Shown here in pieces: positions 10,845 through 18,097 of a stretch of 64,000 nucleotides of DNA (its first letter is position 1; each line of letters starts with the position of its first letter). The DNA is taken from positions 62,001-126,000 of the forward strand of contig CAKZOO010000067.1 of assembly GCA_937136455.1 (NCBI GenBank). Reading direction: 5' to 3'. The notes beneath the pieces were generated by a model. That model did not search any database. It saw nothing but the letters and a program-made list of their open reading frames with translations, and was not told the DNA's origin. A program made the translations under genes and the position numbers. Source of the DNA: an uncultured Flavobacteriaceae bacterium. GTDB lineage: Bacteria; Bacteroidota; Bacteroidia; Flavobacteriales; Flavobacteriaceae.

Positions 10845-12323
10845 TTAGTTTAGTATGTTTATTATTTCAGGACTATCTTTTGAATAGAATAATGATCTCC
10901 AAAAGCTTTTTCCCAATCCATCGTATTTCCATACTACTTCTTTATTGTTATTTATTTCCCAAAAGCCATAGTCTCCTTCACATATAAGTGTATTGCCATT
11001 TGGAAGTCTTTGTGCGCCACCAACTCTTGGAAAGAATAGATTTTCATCAGTAAAATCAAGTATCAATTCCGCGTTGGTTGTCGGTGATAAAGTACTGTTG
11101 AAGTCAGGTAATTTGAATTCCATAATTCTTGAAACACCATCTTTGTTGTTATTGTTAAATATTAATAATTGATAGTTATTATCTACTTTATTAATACTTG
11201 GGTGATGATTGAAGTCAAAAGTTGACGTCCCATCATTATTGTATGTTTTTGAATTGCCTATTCTATAAATTAAATCACCTCCTTTATTAAAATTACCGCC
11301 TGAGGAGCTGCTAGCTTCTATCTGAGTTGTACTATGGTCAATTAACCATACCTCATTATAGAAGTTTACGCTTAATACGATTAAATCTAAATCCTCTATG
11401 TATTCGATTCCATTAGCATGCATTATATCTCCTTGTGGAATAAAGGGATGTCCAGTAGAATTATTATTGTATAAAATGTTTATTTTTTCAGTTTTTTCTG
11501 AAATGACTCCATAATTGGATAGATTGTTATTCGCATTTTGAACTATGTGATCCCAACTATTCCATACCCAAACTACTTCATTTGTCGTAGGATTAATCTC
11601 TTTGATTTTTTCAATAAAGACATCTCCATCTGACATAAACCCAACTTCATTTGCTATTTGCTTATCGATTCGGGTCCAAACAAGAGCTAGGATGTTTCCG
11701 TTGGGAAGAAGTTCGATATCGTGGTGCGCTATTTCATTTTCATCAGATATCCTGTATTCCCATATTGTATTGCCTTCTTTTGAAATTTTTCTAATAATTC
11801 CACCTTGTCCCCCAAATGTTATATTGGGATCACTTACTTTGAATAAACCTATTAAGTTTCCATCTTTTGAGATTTCAATATCTTGACCAAGGTTTAAATC
11901 AAAATCCCATCTATTAATTTGATTTCCATTGTGGTCGATTAAGTAGCAGCTTTTTTGCCCATTTTCAATAGCAAAGATATATCCTGAAGAATCTACTAAA
12001 TCCTCTACAAGATGTGGTACATTTTCGTTTTTATAAATCACATCTAATTCAAAAATAGGTTTAATTGATAAAGACATTTCAACATTAATGTTTACGTATT
12101 GAGATGTGCTTTCTATCCCTTCCCACATTTTAAATCTATAACCAGGGTCTGGTAGGGCCTTAATAATTAATTCAGTTCCTTCTTCGTAAATTCCAGAATT
12201 AAAATCAGTGCTTCCTCCATGTGACTCGTTAATTACGATTTCGTAATAAGATTTGTTTTCTGTTACTTTTGAACAAGCCGTTAAAAGAATTATTGCAATT
12301 AAGCTTAGAAGTCTACTATTCAT
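10845..12323 (-). CDS. Aryl-sulfate-sulfotransferase (ASST)-like lipoprotein with N-terminal bacterial repeat
   Basis: 492 residues. Lipoprotein signal with LLTAC (Cys17). Residues about 28-75 look like an InlB-type bacterial repeat (GGSTDFNSGIYEEGTELII ... GYRFKMWEG). The rest has WD-like strands as in the ASST beta-propeller: AHHDIELLPNGNILAL (His200/201), GDIMHANGIEYIEDLDLIVL (His302) and FNHHPSIN (His373/374). From memory, E. coli ASST uses His252, His356, Arg374 and His436; the His spacings here are similar. The position expected to hold the Arg (after IVLS) reads VNFYNE, so Arg appears absent. ASSTs move sulfate between phenols without PAPS. It is downstream of susC2-susD2, behind a terminator hairpin. 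Activity is inference. Confidence 0.7.
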   Translation of the reverse strand: MNSRLLSLIAIILLTACSKVTENKSYYEIVINESHGGSTDFNSGIYEEGTELIIKALPDPGYRFKMWEGIESTSQYVNINVEMSLSIKPIFELDVIYKNENVPHLVEDLVDSSGYIFAIENGQKSCYLIDHNGNQINRWDFDLNLGQDIEISKDGNLIGLFKVSDPNITFGGQGGIIRKISKEGNTIWEYRISDENEIAHHDIELLPNGNILALVWTRIDKQIANEVGFMSDGDVFIEKIKEINPTTNEVVWVWNSWDHIVQNANNNLSNYGVISEKTEKINILYNNNSTGHPFIPQGDIMHANGIEYIEDLDLIVLSVNFYNEVWLIDHSTTQIEASSSSGGNFNKGGDLIYRIGNSKTYNNDGTSTFDFNHHPSINKVDNNYQLLIFNNNNKDGVSRIMEFKLPDFNSTLSPTTNAELILDFTDENLFFPRVGGAQRLPNGNTLICEGDYGFWEINNNKEVVWKYDGLGKSFWRSLFYSKDSPEIINILN

Positions 12324-12335
12324 AATTTTAGTTTA

Positions 12336-17800: not shown

Positions 17801-18097
17801 TGAATCAGAAGCGAGCGTTACATTGATTTGGTCCGAGGACCCAACCACTACATCTTGAGTAACGTAACCTATAAAGCTAAACGAAAGCGTATCGCCCACG
17901 CTAGCATCTATAGAATAATTACCATCAAAATCCGTGGTGGTTCCATTTGTAGTGCCTTTAACGATGACAGTAGCGCCTGGAAGCGGCATACCTTGATCGT
18001 CAGAAACAGTACCTGAAACCATCTTTTCTTGTGCAAACAAAAATTGCACAGCTAACGCTAGACATAGCGTTAGAATTCCATTTAATTTTGTTTTCAT
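14858..18097 (-). CDS. SusC/RagA family TonB-linked outer-membrane transporter (pair 2)
   Basis: 1079 residues from the ATG at 18097 (MKTKLNGILTLCLALAVQF). A TTG eleven codons upstream is possible but would precede a good signal peptide with an unlikely extension and would lie at the predicted promoter. After the signal come a carboxypeptidase-regulatory-like domain (GTVSDDQGMPLPGATVIVKG), a TonB plug (EEVIVTSLGIKREKKALGYA; NVSVLKGLAAATLYGTQGRN) and a 22-strand-type beta-barrel ending GLSVKLSF. Its first 95 residues resemble those of SusC1 closely, including MKTKLNGILTL, but the codons differ. First gene of a - strand operon with susD2 and the YGDGWNGA lipoprotein; canonical promoter at 18128-18158. 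Confidence 0.95.
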   Translation of the reverse strand: MKTKLNGILTLCLALAVQFLFAQEKMVSGTVSDDQGMPLPGATVIVKGTTNGTTTDFDGNYSIDASVGDTLSFSFIGYVTQDVVVGSSDQINVTLASDSQQLEEVIVTSLGIKREKKALGYAVSEVGDEQLESRADADVARVLSGKASGVNITNQSGLSGSGTSIVIRGFNSFSQSNQPLFIVDGIPFSTETNAQGSFVDGNNGSSRFLDIDPNNIANVSVLKGLAAATLYGTQGRNGVILITTKAGQAGAVGPKKTEITINSSRFTNEMASMPEYQNQYGGGFDQSFGWFFSNWGPSFDEGGVDGWGAQSAINGTTSGTPGYLRHPYTTASSATGIPAVLDALGIAPDAIVKWQPYRSVENFFRKGEVINTNINIRGASQDGTISYNANYGNLSDEGFTPGNKLSRNTLSFGGSAQLSNGFTVNGTLNYAGTKFKSPPVAAGYGSNVGGDGASIFANLYYTPRSVDMIGLPYQNPVTGESIYYRQNNSIQHPLWTVANAGNTQDVNRVFGGATVSYEINDNLNASYRYGVDVYSENNTNYSNKGGKTGSVANQSGQYDTWNNTKTIFDHNISINGDYNIGDDYGLTFTLGATSRSDTYDRNGVASTGQQVFGVLRHFNFEVQDEIQYYEKRNIAGVYGQAAVDYKDYAYLTLSGRKDWVSNLSEANRSIIYPSASFSFIPTTAFADLKSNNLNYLKVRAGFGTSANFPSGYPIASVLSLNTQRFNDVNGNMIISNTSGSQLGNPDLKPELIAELEFGVEGRFFDNRLSTDISIYNKTTTDLIISRPLDPSTGYTSTQTNIGEIQNKGVEIDLTMDWFRSNDGFNWSTFANWSTSEAIVTDLGLDTDEIVYSGFSSLGNVARVGESLGTIVGSKITRDDAGNFVVNSQGSYDTTFGTNIIGDANPDWLLNINNSMSYKNLSFDFLISHTHGGDVFSYTVATLMGRGVVKETEYRKDSFILPGVQADGTPNSVQINNSTYYFSNVLYGPDEMLVYDASVWRLAEVSLKYSLPKSMLDKTPFGSIDITASGYNMYFNAYNAPAGTNWDPNIAGVGVGNGRGFDYLNGPSAKRYGLSVKLSF

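Follow-up and report, generated by a model that had tools for sequence, protein, structure and literature searches.

A proposed SusCDE importer locus beside rpsL in the Flavobacteriaceae and its recurrent, accessory ASST-fold protein

In the DNA of an uncultured Flavobacteriaceae bacterium, we find a standing SusCDE importer partnered by a beta-propeller protein of the arylsulfotransferase (ASST) fold, and across related genomes this partnership is genuine and recurrent. The window, by which we mean the whole stretch of 64,000 nucleotides that was analysed, carries on its minus strand a group of four genes (18097-10845) that open reading frames and family profiles identify as SusC, a SusD-like_2 lipoprotein, a lipoprotein with a YGDGW motif, and an ASST-fold lipoprotein, confirming both the common direction and the families given in the first-pass annotation. 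Our best explanation of the whole, offered tentatively and at close to even confidence, is that the first three genes form an rpsL-side importer whose ligand is likely an oligopeptide, with the ASST-fold protein as an optional, separately controlled partner.

The first gene encodes a TonB-dependent outer-membrane barrel, SusC (14858..18097, minus strand). Its reading frame spans 18130-14858 from a TTG start, and the ATG alternative at 18097 is where the first-pass annotation ended the group. The SusD-like_2 lipoprotein, the presumed lid of SusC, comes next (13255..14838, minus strand; lipobox CETTDLDL), followed by an unclassified two-domain YGDGW lipoprotein that we call SusE by its position (12399..13250, minus strand). 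A strong terminator-like hairpin (12345..12366, minus strand) separates this gene from the ASST-fold gene (10845..12323, minus strand), so the group is not obviously one transcript, and a further terminator-like hairpin, found in a hairpin scan and scored on both strands, lies 3' of ASST (10734..10752). The four-gene boundary is partly arbitrary because a second SusC/SusD pair comes directly after it (10470-5696). This adjacent pair consists of a SusC that lacks the long plug loop described below (7222..10470, minus strand; TIGR04056, 636 bits) and a SusD of the SusD_RagB/SusD-like_3 type (5696..7222, minus strand; PF07980, PF14322). From the reading of open reading frames and neighborhoods, one border of this conserved place is rpsL (21623..22051, plus strand). 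The other is an RNA methyltransferase gene that we take to be rlmB (4822..5574, minus strand), which holds the same position in most rpsL-place loci examined. Between SusC and rpsL, the window has genes that we take to be pabC- and pabB-like and two genes for secreted-type proteins of about 245 amino acids, the h248 family (18404-19150 and 19188-19904, minus strand), which have no Pfam or NCBIfam match. The h248 genes are recurrent: several genera carry one to three of them in this place between rpsL and rlmB.

The window's SusC scores 548.1 bits against the SusC/RagA profile TIGR04056 (curated cut-off 368.25) and also matches PF07715 and PF00593. Its score against the SusC/RagA signature TIGR04057 is 42.6, below the cut-off of 46.2, and a long plug loop immediately precedes that signature. 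When a SusC profile was compared with solved structures, the closest relative was BT2264 at 670 bits, with the runner-up at 339. The loop, at about residues 199-221 counted from the TTG (17468..17536, minus strand), aligns with an insertion in BT2264 and is present in all 16 aligned SusC proteins of the rpsL place. It is also found in 8ypt/8ypu and is missing from 6zlt/5t3r, which are presumably levan SusC proteins, and from the window's second SusC; RagA, judged by the spans aligned, seems shorter at this site. In the excerpted text of the relevant report, the BT2261-64 and RagAB structures contain oligopeptides and the long plug loop of BT2264 is able to contact the ligand (PMC7782687). Taken with these structural data, the shared loop suggests an importer of the pedal-bin type that senses its ligand directly, and both the relatedness of SusC to BT2264 and the loop itself may be read as a weak pointer to oligopeptide ligands. 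The loop is not special to BT2264, because 8ypt/8ypu carry one and the peptide importer RagA is seemingly without it. The SusD profile search does not single out BT2263, which appears in rows ten and eleven of 26. We also considered the window's SusC as a member of a BAM complex and rejected this, as the BamP match was weak (34 bits against 230) and covered the N-terminal 110 residues only.

The SusD assignment is clear, with a score of 130.2 against PF12771 (SusD-like_2; gathering score 27). SusE is less easily placed, as none of 25 aligned relatives has a Pfam match. Its predicted model (pLDDT 84.5, pTM 0.66) has two beta domains, an Ig-like N-terminal domain and a YGDGW domain, the latter named for the DSYGDGW motif (DSYGDGWNGA; 12654..12674, minus strand). 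The form [YF]GDGW is present in 18 of the 25 aligned relatives, and the C-terminal half of the protein is variable among them. The YGDGW module also occurs within very long open reading frames of other genomes. Its use as a marker for ASST was rejected, since SusE relatives carry it with ASST adjoining or not and the very long frames carry it too. Sequence and profile searches of SusE against the PDB returned chance matches only, mostly antibodies, and its best fold relative reached a Z of 7.9, in the range of common beta arrangements. Acidic residues behind the lipidated cysteine are surface export signals in this phylum. The mean number of such residues in the six positions after the cysteine is 2.7 for SusD (n=49), 2.6 for SusE (n=39), and 1.7 for ASST (n=49). 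SusD and SusE therefore fit with export to the surface, while surface display of ASST is less certain because its lipidated cysteine is followed by few acidic residues (CSKVTENK in the window).

This core belongs to a particular chromosomal location. Of the 57 Flavobacteriaceae genomes in which rpsL was found (in one as a fragment), at least 41 have a SusD-like_2 gene no more than 11 kb away from it (counted by eye), and no such gene was seen near rpsL among the matches listed for 38 genomes from the order's other families. In one genome (G058), rpsL and SusCD are on different contigs. The usual order is fusA, a gene that we take to be rpsG, and rpsL, diverging from SusC, SusD, SusE, and rlmB, with a TamA-like gene ahead of SusC in some loci and ASST and other genes behind SusE in some. 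Of 54 loci examined, 18 have the TamA-like gene in the interval that separates SusC from rpsL. It is labelled by similarity to the protein of locus L156, the one member scanned, which matches ShlB at 33.5 bits. The window locus is without it and has the pabC/pabB-like and h248 genes in its position. Flavobacterium profundi (L222) has rpsL, the TamA-like gene, SusC, SusD, and rlmB with no SusE beside them, and its SusC is only 31% identical to that of the window. Genome G010 has two rpsL-SusCDE loci. As part of our whole explanation, and with the same near-even confidence, we propose that the SusC/SusD-like_2/SusE core would be a standing, Flavobacteriaceae-wide importer place beside rpsL. In Flavobacterium johnsoniae, Fjoh_0402 encodes a TamA homolog that has POTRA domains (PMC12045153, excerpted text). 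Fjoh_0403-0405 are SusC, SusD, and SusE, which were isolated as one complex and described as the SUS system of highest abundance in that bacterium, with function unknown (PMC12611786, excerpted text). Gene order and locus numbers lead us to infer that the core seen in the window probably sits at the same chromosomal place as the F. johnsoniae SusCDE.

The fourth protein of the group scores 65.7 against PF05935 (Arylsulfotransferase; cut-off 24.2). PF14269 and PF18998 also match, and its InlB-type repeat is seen as Flg_new_2 at residues 27-83. Its predicted model (pLDDT 91.5) matches Cpz4 (9kf6) with a Z of 32.1 and E. coli AssT (3elq) with a Z of 27.6 over 320 residues (rmsd 3.1), and the other propellers listed reached 22.1 or lower. 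The first-pass annotation had named a propeller model lacking a pocket as evidence that would count against its reading; as far as the fold is concerned, this objection fails because the model matches 3elq and Cpz4. A single-sequence PDB search of the same protein gave a chance viral match alone (E 0.0018), and a profile search recovered AssT and Cpz4. For the active site, we use what we take to be the E. coli AssT numbering and roles of His252, His356, Asn358, Arg374, and His436. By profile alignment to 3elq, the equivalents of His252, His356, Asn358, and His436 are H201, H302, N304, and H373 in the window, and all four positions are invariant across 115 of 115 aligned ASST rows. The fifth departs from AssT, as Arg374 is replaced by N320 in the window and by Asn in all 58 rows of the window's clade (clade A). 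The 57 rows of clade B vary at this position (Arg 25, His 19, Pro 10, Phe 2, Leu 1). Where a clade B row is linked to SusD-like_2, the residue is always Arg (9/9), and the 48 others are mixed (R 16, H 19, P 10, F 2, L 1).

The uniform Asn of clade A raises the alternative that the propeller has no catalytic role and serves the SusCDE complex as a binding subunit, not as a sulfotransferase, and the use of the same slot by other propeller-type proteins, described below, speaks for it as well. We consider this improbable, because four invariant active-site positions would be unusual for a dead enzyme and the SusD-like_2-linked rows of clade B retain Arg; moreover, since the residue varies among the remaining clade B rows, the Arg374 position may not be essential. 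The first-pass annotation had suggested, as one possibility, the uptake of sulfated phenolics or sulfated polymers, in keeping with the ASST fold and its histidines and with relatives that include Maribacter, Allomuricauda, and Aquimarina, all of which are marine. Against this, the eight window proteins scanned include no sulfatase and, as that annotation had also stated, no CAZyme; importers without ASST beside them persist in 6 of 19 genomes with a close SusD-like_2; and the window's SusC is nearest to BT2264. With the relatives of SusC pointing rather to peptides and Asn at the Arg374 position, a sulfated ligand is not supported and seems to us very improbable, although the broader proposal holds up, namely SusCD-type uptake at the surface together with a protein of the ASST fold, and the linkage recurs in other genera and at other chromosomal places.

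We assessed that linkage in the window's genome and 98 relatives (99 in total), of which 28 have an ASST match at E < 1e-30. In 15 of these 28 genomes, ASST lies within 5 kb of a SusD-like_2 match (coordinates read by eye). The two genes are co-directional in 11 (G000, G016, G019, G020, G029, G040, G043, G045, G051, G055, and G056) and convergent in four, all congeners (G007-G010), with an h248 gene between ASST and SusE in G010. The G000 assembly, at 4.06 Mb and with 6.2% contamination, may be mixed, as its congeners measure 1.4-2.7 Mb. Linkage was not seen in the other 13 genomes (G002, G004, G005, which is fragmentary, G012, G022, G035, G064, G069, G071, G077, G081, G082, and G092), and in G002 and G004 the ASST gene and the SusCD core are on different contigs. 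By our own estimate, chance would produce such linkage in a few percent of cases, given the few SusD-like_2 genes in a genome of about 3 Mb. The pairing of ASST and SusD-like_2 exceeds chance and is real and recurrent. The first-pass annotation had named unlinked homologs elsewhere as evidence that would count against it; the 15 linked genomes favor the proposed association, while the 13 without shown linkage, the convergent genes of G007-G010, and the separate contigs of G002 and G004 weigh on the other side. Starting instead from close SusD-like_2 proteins (at least 290 bits; 19 genomes), ASST is present within about 6 kb in 11 and not in the six noted above, and the remaining two meet a contig edge, just behind SusE in G017 and within 1.7 kb in G048.

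A set of named loci extends this comparison. These are the best 80 of 584 matches, several of them cut by contig ends, and because they were chosen through ASST their linkage counts are not unbiased. Among the 79 with an ASST open reading frame, a SusD-like_2 gene is found within 8 kb in co-direction in 21 and on the opposite strand in one, another SusD type in three, and none in 54 (SusD/SusE neighbors scored above 50 bits; the linkage label used for the tree is likewise below 8 kb). Locus L175 was left out of the ASST tree as no ASST frame was obtained, though on closer reading its ASST is convergent with SusE, and L134 is identical to L093. Linkage also occurs away from rpsL, at L112 and at L133/L233 (this genome has no ASST at its rpsL place, L229), and ASST stands beside other SusCD types at L139, L160, and L172. 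In G012 (L120:5159-9849), ASST directly follows a 926-aa SusC-like receptor with no SusD match nearby.

The ASST tree, built from 115 rows by a quick method, divides into two deep clades (support 100). The members of clade A mostly have a lipobox, and one subclade is co-directionally linked to SusD-like_2 in 19/19 rows (support 95). In clade B, one subclade is linked in 9/10 rows (support 91, unstarred), and 8/9 linked clade B rows have a T9SS-type tail, the tail and lipoprotein labels being simple motifs. The window's ASST falls in a third group of 11 rows, where two are co-directional, four convergent, and five unlinked. The starred branches force at least four changes of the co-directional label. 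We also chose 13 genomes for their unlinked or loosely linked ASST and read the rpsL place in 12 of them (G109 was left out). A clade B copy is in or next to the rpsL place in four, namely Arenibacter, Kordia, Winogradskyella (behind rlmB), and Lacinutrix (fragments beside it), and in each of these the clade A copy is elsewhere; the other eight have no ASST at the rpsL place. Judged from this tree, two deep ASST clades have both reached the rpsL-side locus. The linkage in two clades, away from rpsL, and with other SusCD types argues against mere inheritance of neighbors.

ASST is nevertheless an accessory to the importer. Of 22 co-directional loci, 19 have a terminator-like hairpin between ASST and the preceding SusE or SusD gene. 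Among the remaining co-directional spacers in these loci that measure 45-280 nt, 95 of 399 have one (the loci overlap and redundancy was kept), and 40 shuffles gave on average 0.025 in 22. The close relative G003 has a SusD 96% identical to that of the window but lacks ASST at the locus, and no ASST propeller match was found in its genome. By blastn, the window and L100 are colinear at 85-95% except for window positions 12646-10490, where G003 has 559 nt instead. This variable cassette (10490..12646, minus strand) comprises the end of SusE, the hairpin, and ASST, and its breakpoint at 12646 falls in the SusE end just behind YGDGW. The ASST copy of G008 has two stops in a weak match to the N-terminal part. 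The slot behind SusE also hosts FG-GAP/UnbV, GSDH-like, h248, and second SusCD genes; the propeller-type proteins among these (FG-GAP/UnbV and GSDH-like) are found at L140:11183-14539, L106:4258-7596, and L153:8264-9709. ASST is thus set off by a hairpin, convergent in the congeners G007-G010, missing from the nearest relative, and carried on a cassette that has been exchanged.

The same observations fit a different reading, in which ASST is a passenger that works alone, one of several unrelated surface genes gathered behind SusE in a slot that tolerates insertions. The mixed contents of the slot, the presence or absence of the cassette between the window and G003, the convergent or separately placed ASST of congeners, the frequent hairpin, and the named loci with no SusD match within 8 kb, which were chosen through ASST, are all in its favor. 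Two deep clades at one locus, the consistently linked subclade in each, and linkage at other loci and with other SusCD types count against a passenger, and on balance we hold this reading to be somewhat unlikely.

Under the explanation that we prefer, SusC, SusD, and SusE would assemble as a complex in this organism, the SusD lid would close over SusC, and the long plug loop of SusC would sense bound ligand and expose the TonB box. SusE may serve as an exchangeable surface tip, and an oligopeptide or some other small polymer would be the most likely ligand. As an optional and separately controlled partner of the importer, the ASST propeller could act on phenolic or tyrosyl groups of the importer's substrates by sulfate transfer or by binding. 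Tyrosyl groups are a candidate target because a PAPS-independent Eubacterium A-44 enzyme has been reported to sulfate tyrosyl proteins (PMC6272617, excerpted text). A bolder form of this idea, which we think unlikely, couples the standing SusCDE peptide importer to a surface sulfotransferase that needs no PAPS. By adding sulfate to tyrosyl or phenolic groups of ligands at the cell surface, or by taking it off, this enzyme would let sulfation decide what is imported; flavobacteria would have fitted such an activity to this one locus two or more times, drawing on separate ASST clades that differ in their surface anchors.

The components are of known kinds throughout, and the combination of SusCDE with ASST was not found among the matches listed in open-licence PMC text. 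A description of SusCD with ASST, or of the rpsL place, was likewise absent from those matches, as judged by titles, abstract openings, and term counts. We know of no earlier link between ASST enzymes and SusCD uptake, and this would be the first. For a type of SUS complex that is abundant in F. johnsoniae, these results give a family-wide place on the chromosome, along with a ligand class and a partner that can both be tested.

Several known systems resemble the window locus in part. Polysaccharide utilization loci share the SusC/SusD pair, whereas the window lacks, among the eight proteins scanned, the CAZymes that accompany the pair in such loci. BT2261-2264 of Bacteroides thetaiotaomicron (PDB 5fq6-5fq8) includes the closest solved SusC and has the long plug loop, and we take it to combine SusCD with extra surface lipoproteins as the window locus does. 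It differs in that a profile search of the PDB found no relative of the SusE family, and we know of no ASST with BT2261-2264. Fjoh_0403-0405 of F. johnsoniae has SusC, SusD, and an unrelated surface lipoprotein in the same order, and its locus numbers follow on from that of a TamA homolog, a gene that many rpsL-side loci here also have ahead of SusC; the likeness is one of gene order and locus numbers, and the excerpted text of PMC12611786 mentions no ASST. Lastly, E. coli AssT (3elq) and Streptomyces Cpz4 (9kf4/9kf6) have the propeller fold in common with the window's ASST, which also has the active-site histidines and Asn358 of AssT; unlike these enzymes, it is a SusCD-linked lipoprotein with an InlB-type repeat and Asn at the Arg374 position.
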